Shown: piece after piece, positions 13,717-23,927 of the stretch
Layout: each line of letters begins with the position of its first letter
How positions within the stretch are numbered: the stretch's first letter is position 1
NCBI GenBank assembly: GCA_018262475.1
Contig: JAGSYW010000009.1
Span: forward strand, 1-34,351
Direction: 5' to 3'
Length of the DNA: 34,351 nucleotides
Source: Burkholderiaceae bacterium
Lineage (GTDB): Bacteria > Pseudomonadota > Gammaproteobacteria > Burkholderiales > Burkholderiaceae_D
Position numbers and translations under genes: made by a program
Notes under the pieces: model-generated
What the model was told of the DNA's origin: nothing
Database searches by the model: none
Seen by the model: the letters and a program-made list of their open reading frames with translations, nothing else

Positions 13717-14907
13717 ATGATGACGTTTCCAGCAAGCAAGCAAGCCATCTTCGCCAGCCTGCGGTGGCGGCGGCGCTGGCTCCTGCTTGCGCTGTTGTGC
13801 TGCTGCCTGGGCAATGCGCATGCGGCGCGAAGCCTCTGCCAGGCACCACCTTGGCCGCAATGGGAAGCGTTCAAGACCAGTTTCATCAGCCAGGATGGCC
13901 GCGTAATCGACCGCAGTACGCCCCAACAGCAAACCGTTTCCGAAGGGCAGGCGTACGCGCTGTTCTTCGCGCTGGTAGCGAACGACCGGCCGGCTTTCGC
14001 GCGCATCCTGAAATGGACCGAAGACAACCTGGCAGGAGGCGATCTGACCGCTCGGCTGCCGGCCTGGCACTGGGGCAAAAAGGATAACGGCAGCTGGGGC
14101 GTACTTGATGCCAACCCAGCTTCGGATGCCGATCTGTGGCTGGTATATGCGCTGGGCGAGGCGGGGCGGCTATGGCAGGAACGGCGCTACGTCGCGCTGT
14201 CTTCACTGCTGGCTAACCGCACCCTGGCGGAAGAAACCGCGAACCTCCCTGGGCTGGGGCTGACCCTGCTACCAGCGCCGCACGGCTTTCATCTAGGCCA
14301 ATCGGTCTGGCGGCTGAATCCTAGCTACCTCCCAATGCAGCTGTTCGACTGGCTGGGCAGCAGAAGCAGCGACGCTCGATGGCGCGCGCTCGCTGCCTCG
14401 TCGCTGCGCGTCCTGCTCGAATCGGCGCCTCGCGGCTATGCGCCCGACTGGATCCTGTACGAAGCTGGCAAGGGATTCCGCATCGACCACGATGGCGAAG
14501 GCAACGGCAAGGGCGGTTACAACGCAATCCGTGTCTATCTGTGGGTCGGCATGTTGCCACCGGAATCGGCCGCCCGAACCAGGCTGCTGACCGCGTTCGC
14601 CCCGATGAGCGATTTCGTCGCTCGCCACGGCTATCCGCCGGAACAGATCGACATCCACACAGGCCGCGCCAATGGCCCGGGGCCATCCGGCTTTTCCGCC
14701 GCGCTGCTGCCTTTCCTGTCGGTGCAAAACAACACTGCTGCCTTGAACACACAAATCGATCGGATAATCACCCGACCGCCGCGTGCCGATGCCTATTACG
14801 AACAAGCGCTGATGCTGTTCGCGCTCGGCTGGCGCGATGGACACTATCGCTTTGCCAAAGACGGAAGCCTGCAGCCATCCTGGAAAATAACATGCAACCA
14901 CGCCTGA
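13717..14907 (+). CDS. bcsZ: Periplasmic GH8 endoglucanase BcsZ, catalytic base replaced
   Basis: A 396-residue glycoside hydrolase family 8 protein; BcsZ cleaves beta-1,4-glucan in the periplasm and tunes cellulose output. A basic N-terminus and hydrophobic stretch (about 21-36) form the signal peptide. The general-acid motif SEGQ is present (Glu76, matching E. coli Glu55), as are LPAWHWGKK, WRLNPSYLP and GPSGFSAALLPFL. Where E. coli has YDAIRVY with the catalytic base Asp243, this protein has YNAIRVY (Asn269, codon AAC at 14521-14523). An acidic stretch (Asp257, Asp259, Glu261) lies just before it. Either hydrolysis is weakened or another residue serves as base. The gene overlaps bcsC by 16 nt. 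Confidence 0.94.
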   Translation: MMTFPASKQAIFASLRWRRRWLLLALLCCCLGNAHAARSLCQAPPWPQWEAFKTSFISQDGRVIDRSTPQQQTVSEGQAYALFFALVANDRPAFARILKWTEDNLAGGDLTARLPAWHWGKKDNGSWGVLDANPASDADLWLVYALGEAGRLWQERRYVALSSLLANRTLAEETANLPGLGLTLLPAPHGFHLGQSVWRLNPSYLPMQLFDWLGSRSSDARWRALAASSLRVLLESAPRGYAPDWILYEAGKGFRIDHDGEGNGKGGYNAIRVYLWVGMLPPESAARTRLLTAFAPMSDFVARHGYPPEQIDIHTGRANGPGPSGFSAALLPFLSVQNNTAALNTQIDRIITRPPRADAYYEQALMLFALGWRDGHYRFAKDGSLQPSWKITCNHA

Positions 14908-17900
14908 ACCGGATCACTGCCGCACTGATTCTCGCAGGAATCCTGTGCATTCCCGCCCACGCGGAAACCGACAGCAACGCGCCACGCGACCTGATGCGCA
15001 GCGCGCGTCTGTGGGATGCGAAGGAACGTCCCGATCTGGCGAAATCGATTCTGGAAAAACTGCTGAAGCTCGAAACCAGCCCTGAAGTGCTGCTGATGCT
15101 GGGCGACCTTGAGACACGCCTTGGCAACCAGAAGCGTGCCGAGGTATACCTGCAGCAACTCGAACAACAATTTCCGAAGCATCCGCATGGCCGCAAGCTG
15201 CGCAACCTGATCGCGGCCAACACCAGCGGCAAGGAAATGCTGACGCAAGCACGGCTGGCGGCGCGCGCCGGCAACAACGATACCGCGGCGCAACTGCTGC
15301 ACCGGCTGTATCCGGACGGTGCGCCGCCGGGCGAAGCGGGCGTTGAATACCATCTGGTCACCGGTAGCACCGCAAAGGGTTTTGCAGCCGCATCGTCCGC
15401 ACTGGCCAGCCTGTACCGCAGCACCAACGAGTCCCGCTACCGACTCGCATGGCTCAAGCTGCAAAGCGACCGCAGCGTCACGCCAGAACTGCTGCAAGGT
15501 TTCGAAACGCTGACCAAGGCATCCGATGTCCATCGCCCCAAGCTGCAGGATTACTGGTGGCAGGCGATTGTGCGGCAGGCCGACGGCCCCACCAAGATGA
15601 ACTGGGTCAGCCGCTACCTTAAGAAGTTCCCGGACGACCGAAATGCCAGCAACTATCTGGCCGAACTGCAAAAGCTGAACGAGGAAGCGCAGCGCATTGC
15701 CAGCGACCCGGCGGTGCGCGCACGCCGCGCCGGCCTAGCGTGGCTGGAAAAGGGACAGCTCGCGCGTGCGGAACACAATTTGCGCATCTCGCTGGCGCAA
15801 CGGCCGCAGGATGCCGAGGTACTCGGCGGCATCGGCCTGATCAGGCTGCGGCAGGAACGATTCGGTGAAGCTGAAAGCTGGTTCCGGCGGGCAGCAAAGG
15901 CCGCGCCAGACAACAAGCGCTGGCCGGGGCTGGTGCGCAGCGCGCGCTTTGGCGCAGAAATGAAACGGGTTGACGGCCTGATCGCGGCCGGCAAGCTGCA
16001 TGAAGCGCAAAAAGCGGCGAAGGGTGCGCTGAAGATCGATCCGAGCGCCGACAGTCTGGCGCAAATTGCCACCGCGCTGGCAAAGAGTCAGGAACCGGCT
16101 GAAGCGGAAACCTACTATCGAAATGCGTTGAAAATCGAACCCGGCAACCGCTCGGCGCTGCGCGGCTTGCTCGGGTTGCTGATCCAGAACAACCGCCGCG
16201 ACGAAGCGCAGGCACTGATTGCGCAATTCCAAAAAAGGAATCCGAAGGAAGCGCAAAGCCTGAATGAAGACCGTGCGCGCCTGATGCGAGATGAAGCGAA
16301 GGATTATCTGGCGGCGAAACAGCACAGCCAGGCGATGCTGACGCTTGAATCGGCGCTGCTGCTGGCACCGAAGGATGCGTGGATACGCTACGACCTTGCC
16401 AGCCTGTACGACGAACTCGGCTTGCGGCCGCTGAGCCAGAAAGTGATGGCCGACGGGCTGGCGCTGGCGCCGAACGATGACGACATGAATTTCGCCGCCG
16501 CACTGCTGCTGACGTCACAGGAGCGCGAACAGGAAGCGCTGGATCGGCTGGCGCGCGTGCCGCAATCGGCGCGCACCACAGGCATGAAGGAACTTGAAAC
16601 CCGTGCACGCATCAACCTGCTGGTGCGCCAGGCGAAGGCGCAGCAGGCCAGCGGCAATACCGCCGAAGCGCAGCGCCTGACGGAGCAGGCCGAGCGGCAT
16701 GCAGACGGCAATCCGAAAGCGATCGAACAGGTGGCCGAAGGCTGGTTCGGCATCAACCAGCGCGAGCGCGGTCTGGCATTGATGCGGCGCTATCTTGCGG
16801 CCGAGGCGAACGCGCCGCTGGCTACCCGGCTGTATTACGCTTCGCTGCTGAACCGTGCGCGCGATGATGCCGCGCTGTCGGCGCTACTGCCGGATTTGCA
16901 GCAACGCGCCGACTGGACCGATACTCAGCGCGACGCGCTGCTGGAAATAGAAACCGACCTGGCGGTGCGCAGGATCGACGAATTGCAAACACGCGGCAAG
17001 TTTTCCCGCGCCCGCGTGCTGGCCGACCAGCCCGCTGCGTTCAGCAAACCAGACACCGTGCCAGCACTGAAATCCCGCGCGCGGCTGAAGCTCGAAGCGG
17101 GACAGCCGAAGGAAGCGCTGCCGCTGTTGCAACAGGCGCTGAAGAAATCGCCGAACGATGTCGAAGCAAGGCTGCTGCTGGCGCGCGCTCATGAACAGGC
17201 TGGCGATGCGGCGGCTGCAATGAAAACCATCGATGAACTATGGCCGAAGCTGCCGCCAAATGACATCGAAGCGCATCTTGCGGTCACGCGGATCGAGCTG
17301 CGGATGCGCCAGTTCGAGCGCGCCCGCCGGCAAATAGCCGAACTGAAACAACGCTTCCCGAATGAGGCCGACGTCCTGATTCAGGCAGGCCGAATCGAGC
17401 GCAGCGCCGGCAACTATCCTGCCGCGCTGGAACAGTTCAGGCTAGCCCAAACGCTGGAGCAGCGCACCACGCCTGCTGCCGAGCAAGTGCCGGTGCTTGA
17501 AGCGAATGCCAAGCTCGCGCCGCCAGCCGGCCTGACGCTGAAACCGGCGGATACGGTCGGCGCTACGCCCACAACTCAGACGCCGTCTGCGCCATTCAAG
17601 GCGGCGTTGCGCCAGCCGACCACAGCCGAGCGCGAAATCGCCAGCATCGAGGCACGGCGCGATCCGCGCATCGAAACCGGCTTCGATTACTTCAGCAAGA
17701 GCGCCACCGACGGCATGTCATCGTACCGCGGCCATGAAATCCCGCTGGTTGCGTTCTGGCCAGTCGGCTACAGCGGCCATGCGTTCGTGCAGACCGACCG
17801 CGTCAGCATTGACGCCAGAAACCTGTCGCCAGACAAGGACACGTCATTCCTGTTCGGCCAGCTCGGTGCGCGCCAGTACCGGCTGTCGGCGCCGCTGTCG

Positions 17901-18818
17901 CAAACTGCCGACGGCCAGTCGGTCGCAGTCGGTTATCGCGGCGATGACTTGCGCTGGGACATCGGCATGATCGGACTGGGCTTCCCGGTGCAAAACGTCG
18001 TTGGCGGCGTGCGCAAGAGCTGGGAAGTGGACAAGGTCGATTATTCGCTCGAACTGGCGCGCCGGCCAGTCACCAGCAGCCTGCTGTCGTATGCCGGCAC
18101 GCGCGACCCGGCCACCGGCAAGGTCTGGGGCGGCGTGACCAACACCAGCATCAGCGCGCGCGCCGGCACCGATTTCGGCCCGTATTACGGCTACGCCAGC
18201 GCCGAATTTGGCCTGCTGCGCGGCGAAAACGTGCTCGACAATCAGCGGCTGATGCTGCGCACCGGCGTCAGCCGCGATTTCATCCGCCAGCCGGACATGC
18301 GGCTGAACCTCGGGCTGGCGCTGAGCCACTGGCGTTACAAGGAGAACGAGGATTTCTTTACCTATGGCCACGGCGGCTATTACAGCCCGCAGCAATACAC
18401 CGCGCTGGCGCTGCCGTTCGACTGGTATGGCCGCAGCGGCAAGCTGACTTATCTGGTGCGCGGCTCGGTGTCGTATTCGAAGGCGCGGCTGAAAGGGATG
18501 CCGTTCTACCCGACCGATGCAAGCCTGCAGGCAATGGCGGCCAGCAGTTTCGCCCTCGGCCCGCAGAACTACCCGGCCGGGTATCCGTCGCCGTACTATC
18601 CGGCTGACAACAATGGCGGCGGTTTTGGCAAGGCTTTGCGGCTGGCAGCCGAATACCAGCTGACGCCGCATCTGGCGATTGGCGGGGTGTTCGACATCGA
18701 ACGCTCATCCTATTACGCGCCTAATTCGATGATGCTGTACCTGCGCTACCAGTTCGAACCGGTGTACCGGCCGACGCACCTGCGTCCGGTGCCTGTCGTG
18801 CCGTACTCGCGCTTCTGA
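14892..18818 (+). CDS. bcsC: Cellulose export protein BcsC: TPR scaffold and outer-membrane barrel
   Basis: A 1308-residue export component. A signal peptide (1-22, ending IPAHA) leads into a long periplasmic array of tetratricopeptide repeats (about 30-880), a Pro/Thr/Ala linker, and a C-terminal beta-barrel from about residue 920 that ends in Arg-Phe, the terminal aromatic typical of BAM-inserted porins. Size and order match E. coli BcsC (about 1160) with a somewhat longer TPR part. The start at 14892 lies inside the 3' end of bcsZ, suggesting translational coupling; the open frame extends further upstream inside bcsZ, but only this ATG gives a signal peptide. It is the last gene of the plus-strand bcs operon and faces bcsG. 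Confidence 0.95.
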   Translation: MQPRLNRITAALILAGILCIPAHAETDSNAPRDLMRSARLWDAKERPDLAKSILEKLLKLETSPEVLLMLGDLETRLGNQKRAEVYLQQLEQQFPKHPHGRKLRNLIAANTSGKEMLTQARLAARAGNNDTAAQLLHRLYPDGAPPGEAGVEYHLVTGSTAKGFAAASSALASLYRSTNESRYRLAWLKLQSDRSVTPELLQGFETLTKASDVHRPKLQDYWWQAIVRQADGPTKMNWVSRYLKKFPDDRNASNYLAELQKLNEEAQRIASDPAVRARRAGLAWLEKGQLARAEHNLRISLAQRPQDAEVLGGIGLIRLRQERFGEAESWFRRAAKAAPDNKRWPGLVRSARFGAEMKRVDGLIAAGKLHEAQKAAKGALKIDPSADSLAQIATALAKSQEPAEAETYYRNALKIEPGNRSALRGLLGLLIQNNRRDEAQALIAQFQKRNPKEAQSLNEDRARLMRDEAKDYLAAKQHSQAMLTLESALLLAPKDAWIRYDLASLYDELGLRPLSQKVMADGLALAPNDDDMNFAAALLLTSQEREQEALDRLARVPQSARTTGMKELETRARINLLVRQAKAQQASGNTAEAQRLTEQAERHADGNPKAIEQVAEGWFGINQRERGLALMRRYLAAEANAPLATRLYYASLLNRARDDAALSALLPDLQQRADWTDTQRDALLEIETDLAVRRIDELQTRGKFSRARVLADQPAAFSKPDTVPALKSRARLKLEAGQPKEALPLLQQALKKSPNDVEARLLLARAHEQAGDAAAAMKTIDELWPKLPPNDIEAHLAVTRIELRMRQFERARRQIAELKQRFPNEADVLIQAGRIERSAGNYPAALEQFRLAQTLEQRTTPAAEQVPVLEANAKLAPPAGLTLKPADTVGATPTTQTPSAPFKAALRQPTTAEREIASIEARRDPRIETGFDYFSKSATDGMSSYRGHEIPLVAFWPVGYSGHAFVQTDRVSIDARNLSPDKDTSFLFGQLGARQYRLSAPLSQTADGQSVAVGYRGDDLRWDIGMIGLGFPVQNVVGGVRKSWEVDKVDYSLELARRPVTSSLLSYAGTRDPATGKVWGGVTNTSISARAGTDFGPYYGYASAEFGLLRGENVLDNQRLMLRTGVSRDFIRQPDMRLNLGLALSHWRYKENEDFFTYGHGGYYSPQQYTALALPFDWYGRSGKLTYLVRGSVSYSKARLKGMPFYPTDASLQAMAASSFALGPQNYPAGYPSPYYPADNNGGGFGKALRLAAEYQLTPHLAIGGVFDIERSSYYAPNSMMLYLRYQFEPVYRPTHLRPVPVVPYSRF

Positions 18819-18851
18819 TGCCGCTGACACTTCAGGCGCCGCCGTCGCGCT

Positions 18852-18872
18852 GGCGCCCGGAGTGCGCTTTTT
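18852..18872 (+). terminator. Weak terminator candidate after bcsC
   Basis: GCGC (18853-18856) can pair with GCGC (18864-18867) across a 7-nt loop, plus a G-T pair, directly followed by a T run to 18872. A second 6-bp GGCGCC pairing (18835-18840 with 18852-18857) competes with it. A short stem, so tentative. Confidence 0.35.
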
Positions 18873-18948
18873 CAGTTGGTCCGCCACGGCGGCTACTGGC
18901 TGGCAGCCGGAATAAGTGACTCCGCCGGCAATTTCGTTCTATCAGCTC

Positions 18949-18982
18949 AAAAATAACTGACCGAAATGACTTTTTGGTCAGT
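18949..18982 (-). terminator. Hairpin terminator for bcsG within repeat A
   Basis: ACTGACCGAAA (18956-18966) faces TTTTGGTCAGT (18972-18982) over a 5-nt loop, ten of eleven positions pairing. On the minus strand the hairpin is followed by TA and then five T, which fits an intrinsic terminator for the minus-strand bcsG ending at 19090. Confidence 0.6.
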
Positions 18983-19066
18983 AAGGCAGAAAATATACTC
19001 CAACCAGTATCTAAAATCAGCCAGTAAAAACGTGGCCCAGCAGCATGTTTTGACCACATACCCCAA
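18949..19066. repeat. Dispersed intergenic repeat, copy A (bcsC/bcsG junction)
   Basis: About 118 nt that align by eye with 21816-21936 at roughly three-quarters identity with few gaps. Shared blocks include ACTGACCGAAA, GGTCAGT, CCAGTAT, ACGTGGC and CCACATACCCCAA. It begins with an A run and a hairpin and ends 23 nt from the bcsG stop. Same orientation as copy B. Identity was judged by hand, so the figure is approximate. Confidence 0.85.
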
Positions 19067-19089
19067 AGAAATACCGACCTGGCTGCCAA

Positions 19090-20658
19090 TCACGGCTTGA
19101 ATGCGGTCCAATTGCCGGATGGCGAGCGCATCAGGTAACCATCGCCACGACGCATTACGACGATGTTGGCGTTCTCGCTCACGAACGGCGTTTCCGGCAA
19201 TGCCTGCAGCCGTTGCGCCAGCGGCTTGCCGCCATCGCCTTCGAACGGGTTGTCGGCGATGAATCCGGCCAGCAGCGTGCCCAGCGCAAAGTGGCTCAGC
19301 GGCTTGTCCACCACCTCCGTTTTTGCCGCCTCAGCGCCCTTCACGCCTATCAATTTCACCGCCGCCGGCACCAGCGTCACGGCCGGACTGGGAATTTCGC
19401 GCATGCCGGCGATCTGCATCTTGTCGCCGCGCAAGCCGGCGCCATGCTCGGGCACAAACAGTACCACCGTCGGGCGGCCGCGCTGCTCCAGCAGGCTGAT
19501 GAAGCGATCCAGGTCAGCCAGCAGCTTGCCAAGCCGCGGCTTGAACGTGACCAGGCTGGAGGACGAATTCGCGCCAGGAACGCGGTTGCCGTCATGCAGC
19601 GTGATGGTGTTGTAGTACAGCGCCATCGGCCGCGACGTGCCCGCGTGCCGTTCGAGCCAGCCGGCCAGGAGCGGCCCGTCTGCATATACCGGCGAATTGT
19701 CAAACGCGCGCATCGCCACCGGCGCAAAGCGGTTGTCGTCCAGCGCCTGGCTGAGGCTGCCATAACCGCGCAAGGTGCGGGCAAAATTGTCGAACGCGCC
19801 ATCGTGATTCAGCAAGCCATGCACCTCGAAACCGGCACGTTCGAAATGATGAAACAGGTTGCATTCGTTCGGCGCGCCCTGGTACATCTCGTCATGCTTC
19901 GCCTGGCCGCAAGTGCTGCGCAGCACCCGCATCACCGACGGGCCGCTGTAAGTCGAGGCGGCATTGAAATTGCGGAACACCGCATCGAACCGGTTCAGCA
20001 GCGGCTGGCCGGTTTCGCCGAGATATGCCAAGTCGTCCCACGACAGCGAACACACATGCAGCAGTACCACATCGAACGGCGCACGGCTGCCCAGGATCGA
20101 AGGCAGCGCGACCCGCTTTTTTTCCTCGGCGGCGTAAAACGCTTCGAGCTGCGCTGACGGCTCCAGCGCCACGGCTGCATTCGCGCTGGCTGAAGCGGCA
20201 ACGCTGGCAGCCGGCCTGTCAGCCTCCTGCGAACTGCCGGTTTGCCAGCCAGCGACCAATGATGCCAGCGGCACGCTCAGGATGCCGGCGAAGGCAAACG
20301 TCGCCAGCCGCACTCGCTGCCGCAACAGCAGATGCGCAACCGCCAGGAAAATCATGCCGGCCAGCACATACGGGTTGGCGAAGCGGCCCAGCAATTCAAG
20401 CAGATAGGCGCGGTCAAATTCCAGCAGCGCGCCAGCCTGCGACACCACCCGCCCAAACGACGGCAGCCAGGAATCGTAATACAGCAGCACGATCGCCAGC
20501 GGAATGGCCAGCACGGTGCGCGCACGGCGCACCAGCGGCACTTCCAGCGGAAACGCCAGCACAATCGCGAACACCAGGTTCGGCAGCCAATGAAAACCGA
20601 TGAAGCCACCATAGTACAGGCACAGTTTCGCGAAGAAATACAGGCTCCAGTCGCCCAT
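19090..20658 (-). CDS. bcsG: Cellulose phosphoethanolamine transferase BcsG
   Basis: Transfers phosphoethanolamine from phosphatidylethanolamine to cellulose in the periplasm. The 522-residue protein has an N-terminal membrane domain of about five helices (to about residue 137), an Ala/Ser-rich linker, and an alkaline-phosphatase-fold domain. The active-site nucleophile motif TYSGP is present (Ser238, matching E. coli Ser278). Likely zinc ligands are Cys203 (HVCSLSWDDL), Glu404-His405 (VPEHGAG) and His355 (LHDGN). Cys250 and Cys266 match the known disulfide pair. The start has a G-rich ribosome site. It converges on bcsC rather than sitting in an operon with bcsE-bcsF as in E. coli, so its expression is probably separate. 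Confidence 0.95.
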   Translation of the reverse strand: MGDWSLYFFAKLCLYYGGFIGFHWLPNLVFAIVLAFPLEVPLVRRARTVLAIPLAIVLLYYDSWLPSFGRVVSQAGALLEFDRAYLLELLGRFANPYVLAGMIFLAVAHLLLRQRVRLATFAFAGILSVPLASLVAGWQTGSSQEADRPAASVAASASANAAVALEPSAQLEAFYAAEEKKRVALPSILGSRAPFDVVLLHVCSLSWDDLAYLGETGQPLLNRFDAVFRNFNAASTYSGPSVMRVLRSTCGQAKHDEMYQGAPNECNLFHHFERAGFEVHGLLNHDGAFDNFARTLRGYGSLSQALDDNRFAPVAMRAFDNSPVYADGPLLAGWLERHAGTSRPMALYYNTITLHDGNRVPGANSSSSLVTFKPRLGKLLADLDRFISLLEQRGRPTVVLFVPEHGAGLRGDKMQIAGMREIPSPAVTLVPAAVKLIGVKGAEAAKTEVVDKPLSHFALGTLLAGFIADNPFEGDGGKPLAQRLQALPETPFVSENANIVVMRRGDGYLMRSPSGNWTAFKP

Positions 20659-20859
20659 TTGCCCCCCATCTACGCACTCATAGTGCGATGCTGCCAGCTT
20701 GTGCCTGCCGTGTAAACTCTGCGTTGACGATGGTCAATCCATGGTCATTCGATATTCAACCGCCAGTCTTTCAATCGCCATTGGTTTGCCCGCCGGGCAC
20801 ACCATTGCATTGGCACGGCGGAAGGTGCACACTGTCATCCCCGTTTCAGGAATCATGCG

Positions 20860-21759
20860 ATGAACGACACTTCCAGCAAACTCGTGATCGGCATCGCGTC
20901 GCGCGCGCTGTTCGACCTAGCTGACAGCCATCAGGTATTCGAGCAGCAGGGCGTCGATGCCTACTGCCGCTACCAGATCGCGCACGAAGACGTGCCGCTG
21001 GCGCCGGGGGTCGCGTTCAGTCTGGCGCGCAAGCTGCTGGCGCTCAATGATGCCGATCCGGCCAACCCGCGGGTCGAGGTGATTTTGCTGTCGAGGAACA
21101 GTTCCGACACCGGCCTGCGCATCTTCAATTCGATCCGGCATCACGAACTCGACATCAAGCGGGCAGTGTTCACCAGCGGCCAAAGCCCGTTCCGCTACGT
21201 GCCGGCGTTTGGCGCGCACCTATTCCTGTCGGCCGATCCGGACGACGTGCGCCAGGCGCTCGAAGCCGGCTACGCGGCCGCGACCATCCTGCCATCGAAC
21301 CTCGGCGCGAATGAAACCGACCAGCTGCGGATCGCGTTCGACGGCGATGCGGTGCTGTTCTCGGACGAGGCCGAGCGCGTGTTCAAGGAAAACGGCTTGC
21401 AGGCATTCGCCCAGAGCGAAGTGGAAGCGGCGCGAAAACCCTTGCGCGGCGGGCCGTTCAAGACCTTCCTGGCGATGCTGCACCGCATCCAGTCCGATTA
21501 TCCGGCCGAAAACTCGCCCATCCGCACTGCGCTGGTAACCGCCCGCGGTGCGCCGGCGCACGAGCGTGTGATCCGTACGCTGCGCGACTGGGGCATCCGC
21601 ATCGACGAATCGCTGTTTCTGTCCGGCATGGACAAGGGGCCGTTCCTGCAGGCGTTCGGCGCCGACATCTTCTTCGACGACCAGCGCAAGCATTGCGACT
21701 CGGCCAGCCAGCATGTCGCCACCGGCCACGTGCCGCATGGGGTGGCGAACGAAGCCTGA
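20860..21759 (+). CDS. Cytosolic 5'-nucleotidase (NT5C1-like family)
   Basis: A 299-residue protein of the 5'-nucleotidase family Pfam PF06189, related to animal cytosolic nucleotidase I; it would dephosphorylate nucleoside monophosphates. Family features visible are the N-terminal IASRALFDL, the central LLSRNSSDTGLRI and SGQSPF segments, and the C-terminal ARGAPAHERVIRTLR followed by GADIFFDDQRKH. The family is HAD-like. AGGA lies eight bases before the start. It is a single gene between bcsG (divergent) and comM (convergent). A functional link to cellulose, for example clearing nucleotides, is possible but unsupported. Confidence 0.85.
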   Translation: MNDTSSKLVIGIASRALFDLADSHQVFEQQGVDAYCRYQIAHEDVPLAPGVAFSLARKLLALNDADPANPRVEVILLSRNSSDTGLRIFNSIRHHELDIKRAVFTSGQSPFRYVPAFGAHLFLSADPDDVRQALEAGYAAATILPSNLGANETDQLRIAFDGDAVLFSDEAERVFKENGLQAFAQSEVEAARKPLRGGPFKTFLAMLHRIQSDYPAENSPIRTALVTARGAPAHERVIRTLRDWGIRIDESLFLSGMDKGPFLQAFGADIFFDDQRKHCDSASQHVATGHVPHGVANEA

Positions 21760-21815
21760 CGGGTTACGGGCGGCAGCCGGCAAACGAGTTTGTGCCGCCC
21801 GGCCAGCAACAGCCC

Positions 21816-21851
21816 AAAAAATGACTGACCGAAAAGTCACTTTCGGTCAGT
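21816..21851 (-). terminator. Hairpin terminator for comM within repeat B
   Basis: A perfect 11-bp stem, ACTGACCGAAA (21824-21834) with TTTCGGTCAGT (21841-21851), 6-nt loop. On the minus strand it is followed by CA and six T (plus-strand A run 21816-21821), a good intrinsic terminator for comM ending at 21947. Confidence 0.75.
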
Positions 21852-21936
21852 TAGAACAGAAAGCATGCTCCACCCAGTATTTAAAAACCGCCAGCAAATA
21901 CGTGGCACAATGAGTCATTTTGGCCACATACCCCAA
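21816..21936. repeat. Dispersed intergenic repeat, copy B (5'-nucleotidase/comM junction)
   Basis: About 121 nt aligned with 18949-19066 (copy A), same orientation, 2.87 kb apart. The right half (21872-21936) aligns without gaps over 65 nt with 16 mismatches. Copy B ends 10 nt from the comM stop. Like copy A it lies between two convergent genes. No open frame spans it. Confidence 0.85.
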
Positions 21937-21946
21937 CCCAAACAGC

Positions 21947-23470
21947 TCACTGCTCGCGCAACGCCCGCCTGTACTGGATCGCTTCGGCGATGTGCGCCTG
22001 CCCGACTGTGTCTGCACCCGCCAGATCGGCCACGGTGCGCGCCACCTTCAGCACGCGATGGTAAGCGCGCGCCGACCAGTTCAGCCGCGCCATGGCGCCG
22101 CGCAGCAACTGTTCGCCCACCGCATCGGGTCGGCAAAGCTGGTCGATTTCCTTCGTCGTCAGCAGGTTGTTCGCCTTGCCCTGTCGCCGCTGCTGCAGCG
22201 CGAACGCGCGCTCGACCCGGGCCGCAATCGCCGCCGAGGGTTCGCCGTCGGATTGCTGCATCAATTCATCCTGCGCCACCGCGCCGACCTGGATTTGCAA
22301 ATCAATCCGATCCAGCAGCGGGCCAGAAATGCGGCCCTGATAACGCGCCACGCCATCCGGCGTGCAGCGGCATTTGCCGGATGCATGGCCGAGGTAGCCG
22401 CACGGACACGGGTTCATCGCCGCGATCAACTGGAAGCGCGCTGGGAAATCGGCCTGGCGCGCGGCGCGGGAGATGGTGATCTGACCCGATTCGAGCGGCT
22501 CGCGCAGCACTTCGAGCACCTTGCGCTCGAACTCCGGCAATTCATCCAGAAACAGCACGCCGCAATGGGCGAGCGAAATTTCGCCCGGCCGCGGGGATCC
22601 GCCACCGCCAACCAGCGCCACCGCGGAAGCTGTGTGATGCGGTGATCGATATGGCCTAACCTTCCAGCGAGCAGGATTGAAACTGCCTGCCAGTGATTGC
22701 ACTGCTGCCGATTCCAGCGCTTCACCGTCGGTCATCGGTGGCAGGATGCCGGCAAAGCGCGAGGCCAGCATCGTCTTGCCGCTGCCGGGCGGGCCGACCA
22801 TCAGCACGCTGTGGCCGCCAGCTGCGGCGACTTCGAGCGCCCGTTTCGCCTGCTGCTGCCCCTTCACTTCGGCGAAATCGGGATACGATGGGCTGACCGC
22901 GCCCACCTCCGATTTCATCCGCGCCAGCCTTGAATCTTCTGCCGTGGCAGCGAAGTGAGCGCAAACTTCCAGCAGCGAACCGGCCGGCAACACGGCGGCG
23001 CCGGAGACCAGCGCCGCTTCGTCAGCGCTGCCGCGCGGCAGAATGAACGCGCGCGCCTTGCCCTGGCGGGCGGCGCTTTGCTGCATCGCGTAAGTCATCG
23101 CCAGCGCGCCGCGAATCGGCAGCAGCTTGCCCGAGAGCGACAGTTCGCCCGCGAACTCATATTCGTCCAGCCGTTCCATCGGAATCTGGCCGGATGCGGC
23201 CAGAATGCCAAGCGCGATCGGCAAATCGAAACGACCGGATTCCTTCGGCAATTCGGCCGGCGCCAGATTGACGGTAATCCGCCGCGCCGGAAATTCAAAG
23301 CGCGAATTTTGCAACGCTGCGCGCACCCGGTCGCGCGCTTCTTTCACTTCGGTTTCGGGCAAACCGACAATGGTCAGCCCCGGCAGGCCGTTGGCCAGAT
23401 GGACCTCGACCGTGACTTCAGGTGCATGCATGCCGGCCAGCGCACGGCTTTTGAGGATGGCGAGGGTCAT
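21947..23470 (-). CDS. comM: ComM/YifB family AAA+ ATPase (Mg-chelatase-like)
   Basis: A 507-residue hexameric AAA+ helicase of the ComM/YifB family, which promotes branch migration during natural transformation in Vibrio and Haemophilus and is widespread outside competent species. The N-terminal domain is S5/Lon-like (VHLANGLPGLTIVGLPE). Walker A is GPPGSGKT (226-233) and Walker B VLFLDE (305-310). MNPCPCGYLG with further Cys residues is a family signature, and the C-terminal lid ends in the Mg-chelatase-type helix with YHRVLKVARTVADL. The start at 23470 (MTLAILKSRAL) is the family start; longer in-frame extension upstream overlaps the lipoprotein gene. It follows that gene by 10 nt and is probably co-transcribed. 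Confidence 0.94.
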   Translation of the reverse strand: MTLAILKSRALAGMHAPEVTVEVHLANGLPGLTIVGLPETEVKEARDRVRAALQNSRFEFPARRITVNLAPAELPKESGRFDLPIALGILAASGQIPMERLDEYEFAGELSLSGKLLPIRGALAMTYAMQQSAARQGKARAFILPRGSADEAALVSGAAVLPAGSLLEVCAHFAATAEDSRLARMKSEVGAVSPSYPDFAEVKGQQQAKRALEVAAAGGHSVLMVGPPGSGKTMLASRFAGILPPMTDGEALESAAVQSLAGSFNPARWKVRPYRSPHHTASAVALVGGGGSPRPGEISLAHCGVLFLDELPEFERKVLEVLREPLESGQITISRAARQADFPARFQLIAAMNPCPCGYLGHASGKCRCTPDGVARYQGRISGPLLDRIDLQIQVGAVAQDELMQQSDGEPSAAIAARVERAFALQQRRQGKANNLLTTKEIDQLCRPDAVGEQLLRGAMARLNWSARAYHRVLKVARTVADLAGADTVGQAHIAEAIQYRRALREQ

Positions 23471-23480
23471 CGGTATCCGA

Positions 23481-23927
23481 TCAATCCTTGCCGACAAAAA
23501 CAGTGCGGACAAACAGCCTGTCGTTGGTGAATTGCGGACACGCCCTGGCCGATTCCGGCCCCAGACGCGGCAGGATGTCTCCGCCGCGGCGCAAATAGGA
23601 CACATAGGTGCCGAGGGTCTTGCCATCGCTTTCGCGCACGATGGTATAGGTCGTCTTGTCTATCGTGGGCGAGCTGGTTTTGATCTTTTCATTTTTGCCG
23701 ATGAACAGGTAATCGCCGCCGTCTTGATTCCACGACTTGAAAAATGTCGGGTCGCCGTGCGGTGTCAGCAATCCTCTAGGCAGCGGCACTTTTTCCTGCA
23801 CCTTTATCCCGCCGTCCTGCCGGCACAGGGCCTCCATCTGTTCGTCAACATTCATCTGCTCGCAGCCGGCGAGCATCAGCGCAACCACAGATATTCCAAC
23901 AGCTGACAGCATATTTCGGCAGATCAC
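23481..23927 (-). CDS. Small lipoprotein of unknown function
   Basis: A 148-residue predicted lipoprotein. The GTG at 23925-23927 was chosen because AAGGAG (23935-23940) sits seven bases upstream; the internal ATG at 23912 has no such site. The N-terminus has a basic start, a hydrophobic core and the lipobox LAGC, with the lipidated Cys about residue 22. The mature part has no domain I recognise; it contains two further Cys (in LCRQDGG and ACPQF) that may form a disulfide, and mixed polar beta-like segments. It lies upstream of comM with a 10-nt gap, so the two are likely one transcript, but no shared role is evident. Confidence 0.75.
   Translation of the reverse strand: MICRNMLSAVGISVVALMLAGCEQMNVDEQMEALCRQDGGIKVQEKVPLPRGLLTPHGDPTFFKSWNQDGGDYLFIGKNEKIKTSSPTIDKTTYTIVRESDGKTLGTYVSYLRRGGDILPRLGPESARACPQFTNDRLFVRTVFVGKD

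Follow-up and report, generated by a model that had tools for sequence, protein, structure and literature searches.

Two intergenic repeats in a Burkholderiaceae contig belong to a dispersed family of possible multi-dyad protein-binding sites

Two diverged repeats of about 120 bp lie in a stretch of 34,351 nucleotides from a Burkholderiaceae bacterium (assembly GCA_018262475.1, contig JAGSYW010000009.1, positions 1 to 34,351; hereinafter referred to as the window), and the question they raise is what kind of element they represent. A first-pass annotation had described them as hairpin-bearing repeats at convergent gene junctions, and this description was borne out: the copies at 18949-19066 (copy 1) and 21816-21936 (copy 2), both on the minus strand and in the same orientation, share 79% mean column identity (78.7% across 122 columns by blastn), and each is located 3' of a minus-strand gene at a convergent junction (bcsG, stop at 19090; comM, stop at 21947). 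They were the only significant element matches in the 34-kb window. They are not a special pair, being two of many copies distributed genome-wide.

When copy 1 was used as a query against the genome of the window (G000; 2.18 Mb, 91% complete), at least 39 other places were found (40 including itself, the best 40 of 122 candidates; best E 3e-29), in addition to six short matches on the opposite strand. A sequence-only model built from 31 copies (R1) gave at least 150 matches in the same genome (best 150 of 875 candidates), including 111 near full length, 38 limited to the first ~75-105 positions, and one limited to the 3' part. The earlier suggestion that the repeats were more than a shared stop signal was thus upheld, as they belong to a dispersed family; that annotation would have reduced them to a single local duplication if no further copies existed, and many were found in the genome and its relatives. 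The 31-copy alignment had sharp edges on both sides. In the window's genus (g1), the element consists of a 75-nt core with the consensus GGGGTATATnGnnAAAAnnnnnnGCTGGGCCACATnTTTnCTGGCTGTTTnnAAATACTGnnnGGAGTATATTTT and a tail of ~40 nt with the consensus CTTACTGACCnAAAAGTCATTTCGGTCAGTTATTTT. In the right dyad of the core, columns 55-58 and 67-70 were invariant or almost so among 146 copies. The exact dyad pattern AATAC-N8-GTATWTTT occurred 135 times in G000, 166 times in the sister genome CTSoil_111 (G002, a metagenome-assembled genome), and not at all in a congener (G001), with 0-1 matches for the reversed-pattern control. A strict exact-pattern scan of an 84,980-species genome collection, from which near relatives of the window may have been excluded and in which diverged copies escape the pattern, returned 22 stretches, all from CTSoil_111.

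Further counts were obtained from a G002 sample of 780,943 bp, comprising seven long contigs picked for containing matches and not at random. The sample held 87 core matches, or 83 sites of at least 25 bits after merging, corresponding to one site per ~9.3 kb; extrapolation to 2.4 Mb gives roughly 255-270 copies. According to our own codon-usage gene caller, 85 of the 87 copies lay outside genes, as did 76 of 77 copies in G169, a near-complete genome of genus g49 (two contigs, 4.9 Mb) whose cores are related but genus-specific in sequence. A simple string test showed no tail in 49 of the 87 G002 copies. Tail matches in the sample were found directly 3' of a core (37) or as the palindrome's opposite-strand reading beside a core (the remaining 24), and none was found without a core.

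Orthologous sites were compared between G000 and G002 where both flanks of a G000 copy were matched in the G002 sample. At all 24 distinct sites G002 had an element as well, oriented in the same way (25 rows, one being a weak reverse reading of another; one site is a weak G000 match of 18.4 bits), and no empty site was seen in either direction (24 distinct sites; 23 in reverse). In 23 aligned orthologous pairs the element was 79% identical and the flanks 65% and 65%. Among 20 gapless pairs, 15 of 520 cells (2.9%) differed at 26 conserved core columns, 183 of 440 (42%) at 22 variable columns, and 497 of 1545 aligned upstream flank letters (32%); this contrast is partly built in, as the conserved columns were picked from the 146-copy alignment, which contains the same pairs. 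Per-column differences between orthologues followed the entropy across copies (r=0.92). Column-specific constraint, as expected of a protein-bound chromosomal site, was therefore present. To judge from the alignments, the pattern is that of binding sites evolving singly under a common constraint; binding itself we infer.

In G002 and G169 the copies were also more evenly spaced than random. For the 83 G002 sites, the coefficient of variation (CV) of the gaps was 0.676, compared with means of 0.86-0.95 over five null models (P 0-0.005). A hard exclusion of 2-3 kb reproduced this CV, which points to mutual exclusion and not to strict periodicity. In G169, 77 sites in 740 kb gave a CV of 0.641 against a null of 0.923 (0/5000), with 4 gaps shorter than 3 kb where 18 were expected; no element was found in the 60 kb read of its second contig. 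A control REP-like (repetitive extragenic palindromic) family of G001 was not even (30 sites in 400 kb, CV 1.03 vs null 0.86). In this respect the copies of G002 and G169 are unlike the REP doublets of SBW25, which are reported to be randomly distributed across extragenic space (PMC3116915).

Models detected the element in three genera. The full-length model R1 matched 11 of 294 genomes of the bacterial family, and R3, a model of G169 copies, matched 19 of 392 genomes in 3 of 44 genera (g1, 2; g13, 3; g49, 14; genus labels are those of the search tool). Both surveys used stricter filters, and their per-genome counts are lower bounds. With the core model R2 at E 0.01, at least 60 matches were obtained in G169, 100 in G119, 113 in G080, and 84 in G110, many of them weak, and none in G001 (best 150 candidates each). 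The consensus sequences of G169 and G119 were iteratively refined from the G002 model, after which the G169 count was made with a model built from the G169 copies. The G169 consensus contains three dyads, namely the left end ATATACTCCCC, the middle ATTGTCCA-N9-TGGACAAT and the right ATATAC-N8-GTATAT, and has no tail; 7 of 36 aligned copies have a left end of GGGGTAT type instead of ATATACTCCCC. As a measure of whether positions are conserved, the gene pairs shared by G002 and G169 (46) were too few to judge, with 2 occupied in both, 1 in G002 only, and 3 in G169 only; none of the pairs shared with G119 (7 for G002, 6 for G169) was occupied.

The best explanation, to which we give close to an even chance, is that the copies are chromosome-wide intergenic DNA sites, the 75-nt core being a putative multi-dyad site for a sequence-specific DNA-binding protein and the tail an optional terminator. 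Such a protein would use core sites every few kilobases, and would most simply be a nucleoid-organising or domain-forming factor, while the ~40-nt tail would act as an optional intrinsic-terminator-like hairpin. The element probably originated as a small mobile element, one that has ceased to spread in the G000/G002 pair and is now fixed and maintained there. Its logic, a single protein reading numerous intergenic dyads, would be shared with matS, parS and other dispersed sites that organise the chromosome; the present element differs from these in its length (75-96 nt), in its several dyads, and in its presence on every sampled contig except the 60-kb piece of G169's second. A more specific, lineage-specific version, in which several hundred multi-dyad sites, kept roughly 9 kb apart through mutual exclusion, are bound by a dedicated architectural protein that divides the nucleoid of related genera into regularly sized domains, seems rather unlikely.

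Several points weigh against this explanation. No binding protein came to light, and no genome-wide search for one was made. The even spacing is matched by 2-3 kb mutual exclusion, which transposon target immunity could also produce, and G119 yielded only 16 sites over 400 kb, their gaps no more regular than chance (CV 0.88, null 0.89). The reverse occupancy comparison, from G002 to G000 (23/23), was a weak test, as the compared G000 DNA was enriched in element sites. The family was not detected in 283 of 294 (R1) and 373 of 392 (R3) genomes of the bacterial family, nor in the congener G001 by model searches or exact pattern, so such bacteria can do without the element. In addition, inverted ends ATATACTCCC..GAGTATAT, separated by 83-85 bp, are present in 27 of the 77 G169 copies, a trait like that of mobile elements.

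In the window, the two copies and their gene neighbours are arranged as follows (HMM, hidden Markov model).
18990..19064, minus strand: core of copy 1, 75 nt, starting 25 nt past the bcsG stop codon (HMM 57.4 bits; R1 match 18950-19065)
G002:C22:18144-18070: orthologue of the copy 1 core, flank-matched site in G002
18995..19010, minus strand: right dyad of copy 1, ATACTGGTTGGAGTAT, a rigid ATACT-N6-AGTAT read from the sequence
18956..18982, minus strand: tail hairpin of copy 1, ACTGACC..GGTCAGT followed by TATTTTT, from the 31-copy alignment and folding; missed by the terminator scan
18910..18948, minus strand: degenerate second tail unit of copy 1, seen by eye; the G002 orthologue has one unit (pairwise alignment)
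21862..21934, minus strand: core of copy 2, 12 nt past the comM stop codon (HMM 48.4 bits)
G002:C22:21046-20972: orthologue of the copy 2 core, flank-matched site in G002
21865..21880, minus strand: right dyad of copy 2, ATACTGGGTGGAGCAT, departing once from AGTAT; the G002 orthologue reads ATACTGCACCCAGTAT
21824..21851, minus strand: tail hairpin of copy 2, 12 pairs followed by CATTTTTT, from the terminator-like scan and folding
14379..18818, plus strand: bcsC-like gene, convergent neighbour of copy 1 (Pfam BCSC_C)
19090..20658, minus strand: bcsG (Pfam CBP_BcsG, 3.4e-171)
20860..21759, plus strand: 5'-nucleotidase gene, convergent neighbour of copy 2 (Pfam 5-nucleotidase)
21947..23626, minus strand: the gene that the first-pass annotation and we take to be comM (Pfam Mg_chelatase, ChlI)

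In G002, comM is split into two parts 27 kb apart (G002:C22:22489-49877) with a 7-bp query overlap, which suggests a large insertion in comM, and ~780 bp (G002:C22:21047-21827) separate the comM end from the element, compared with 12 bp in the window.

The main rival explanation, possible although on the doubtful side, is a REP/REPIN-like element or a MITE (miniature inverted-repeat transposable element), non-autonomous and moved by a putative transposase; mutual exclusion, through target immunity or selection against close pairs, would then yield the even spacing, and conservation would reflect transposability. Many sharp-edged intergenic copies, the inverted ends in 27 of 77 G169 copies and the avoidance of divergent gene pairs by tail copies (see below) are all consistent with this. 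The comparison with the congener agrees as well: at 10 of 10 conserved gene pairs with an element in G002, no copy was detected in G001, and the G002 gap was longer in 8 (e.g., 130 vs 10 bp, 92 vs 23) and shorter in 2. None of these 10 junctions held a REP of G001. Between G000 and G002, however, all 24 common sites were occupied with no empty site seen, and the constraint was found at sites that had not moved between the two genomes. Among the 27 G169 copies, target duplications were not in excess of chance (observed vs expected: 2 bp, 5 vs 4.3; 3 bp, 2 vs 3.5; 5 bp, 1 vs 0.55), and the 740 kb of G169 read contained no longer element sharing these ends, as a parent would. Searches of phage and plasmid collections with copy 1 in distant mode gave no match, and neither did three exact-pattern viral scans.

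The likeness to known repeats is partial. As in REP, REPIN and BIME (bacterial interspersed mosaic element) families, there are hundreds of short palindrome-bearing copies (more than 100 per genome), nearly all intergenic, and the element is modular. REPs and BIMEs have been reported as protein-binding sites, with chromosome organisation and termination as suggested roles (PMC2817692). The same source reports REP-associated tyrosine transposases (RAYTs) as always flanked by two inverted REPs. The present consensus has no GT[A/G]G head, beginning with GGGGTAT (g1) or ATATACTCCCC (G169). As to the two inverted REPs that make up the hairpin unit of a REPIN, inverted ends occur in 27 of 77 copies in G169; the left end of the g1 consensus, GGGGTAT, is not inverted relative to the right end, and the window copies have no terminal inverted repeats. 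G000 and G002 each have a single PF01797 match, which adjoins a glutamate-synthase-like gene (judged by eye from its translated start) and has inverted GGGGTCGGAGT, another REP, on both sides; one copy of the present family lies ~0.8 kb upstream, past an hsp20-like gene (by eye). Because of its flanks the PF01797 gene belongs to that other REP family, which counts against the transposition rival, and mobilisation by the resident RAYT-like gene was rejected, as in both genomes it is bordered at both ends by the other REP and not by the present family. The element resembles a MITE in its small size, in the fixed-distance inverted ends of some G169 copies and in being undetected at the matching G001 junctions, and differs from one in lacking target duplication above chance, a parent in 740 kb and any site differences between sister genomes. 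ERIC, a ~127-bp conserved intergenic element of enterobacteria whose function is unknown, is similar in description and comes from an unrelated lineage. Of the alternatives named in the first-pass annotation, the REP/MITE-like element thus stands as a plausible origin and the protein-binding site as a plausible, predicted role.

Other repeats were observed beside this family. The lone Y1_Tnp/RAYT-like gene, at L101:1471-2193 (G000:C136) and in L100, reads PNQVH where active HUH transposases have PNHVH, and is possibly inactive. The REP-like palindrome of G001, GGGGTCAGcAGTTTT..ACTCTGACCCC (e.g., C9:84827-84920), occurs at about one site per 11 kb; the pattern GGGGTC[AG]G..AGT gave 35 matches per 400 kb in G001 and 3 per 781 kb in G002. 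At G169:C1:359133-359236, a separate element of ~100 bp with inverted ends GGACTTACGCAAAA..TTTTGCGTAAGTCC is matched 27 times across 740 kb of G169 (some of these are one place counted twice, once per strand), has many copies in G119, G080 and G050, and looks like an ordinary MITE. When a 20-kb piece of G169's 171-kb contig was compared with plasmids, 16 records were found at 60-80% identity, with a Tn3-type transposase stretch among the matches listed.

It is improbable that the inverted repeat in the middle of the element (GTCCA..TGGAC, GGCCA..TGGC) is recognised as a folded single strand, either RNA or extruded DNA. Both arms change together between G000/G002 and G169, the T.G and G.T cells of G169 (18) exceed A.C and C.A (10), a hint of one-strand pairing, and the covariation score was reached in 16 of 500 (A4) and 3 of 500 (A3) shuffles. 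Two-sided changes were nevertheless few (7 and 13 cells), and relatedness alone can yield such scores. Pair counts indicated weak covariation in the middle inverted repeat, whereas changes in the right dyad were never two-sided, and mutual information across 146 copies consisted chiefly of adjacent-column and subfamily signals. The right-dyad spacer avoids lengthening the stem: columns 60/65 were G..G in 82 copies and C..C in 26, with complementary letters in 19 of 146, a pattern that speaks against a longer hairpin having been selected for. One G169 copy folds as single-stranded DNA into three tandem hairpins. RNA structure as the working form was rejected, with weak or no support from RNAalifold, mutual information and pair counts; covariation, the absence of which had been named beforehand as a sign of mere duplication, was weak but not absent. 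A 6S RNA gene (Rfam, 79 bits) is located at G169:C1:358915-359093, with a copy of the element a few hundred bp away.

Even less probable is that the repeats work at the RNA level as 3'-UTR elements, namely intrinsic terminators, small RNAs derived from the 3' UTR, or both. The tail does fold into a hairpin whose end is rich in T, and among the 38 tail copies of the G002 context table, 15 were at convergent pairs, none at divergent pairs, and 2 had a neighbour off the sample. Both the enrichment at convergent junctions (15/36 vs 43/323 slots, p=9e-5) and the absence from divergent pairs (0/38, p=0.009) were significant, the Fisher test having taken 37 tail copies. In its placement the tail thus behaves as if it did harm ahead of a gene, which a terminator would also do. 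Its orientation does not fit a terminator that ends the upstream gene, as codirectional tail copies lay 11 with and 10 against transcription. The 49 core-only copies were distributed over convergent (7), codirectional (21 with, 12 against) and divergent (9) pairs, and for all copies in codirectional pairs the counts were 32 with and 22 against in G002 (p=0.22) and 19 and 25 in G169. Neither core nor tail is directed at the upstream gene, and a main role as terminators or 3'-UTR small RNAs is not supported, given these ratios and the weak RNA-type covariation. Moreover, 49 of 87 G002 copies and the G169 consensus have no tail, and no element match reached the gathering score of Rfam in window 18000-23000 or at four loci with copies. 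In the window, a hairpin followed by a T run was found in copy 2 by the scan and in copy 1 only by eye and folding, a feature confined to tail copies; over the whole region, the terminator-like scan gave 6 matches vs 5.0 in shuffles. Replication polarity was rejected as an explanation of orientation, the element being oriented along the local G-rich strand in 47 cases and opposed in 37. At G002:C25:36108-37543, a region of low GC (0.49 vs 0.585) with a lone 195-codon frame is located between two same-orientation copies 1 kb apart.

The copies do flank the bcsG and 5'-nucleotidase pair, which had raised the possibility of an inserted block, but their origin in a local duplication around such a block can be dismissed, since there are at least 150 matches genome-wide and both junctions are occupied in the sister genome, ~2.9 kb apart as here.

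Among the open-access literature matches listed, no description of the family was found, although this does not prove that none exists. Intergenic repeats dispersed through a genome are usually regarded as selfish or decaying, whereas this family bears signs of function: the comparable orthologous sites are all kept, constrained columns persist amid drifting DNA, and the spacing is even in two genera and not in the control family. As carriers and a non-carrier occur within one genus, the role of such repeats for the bacterial chromosome is directly testable.

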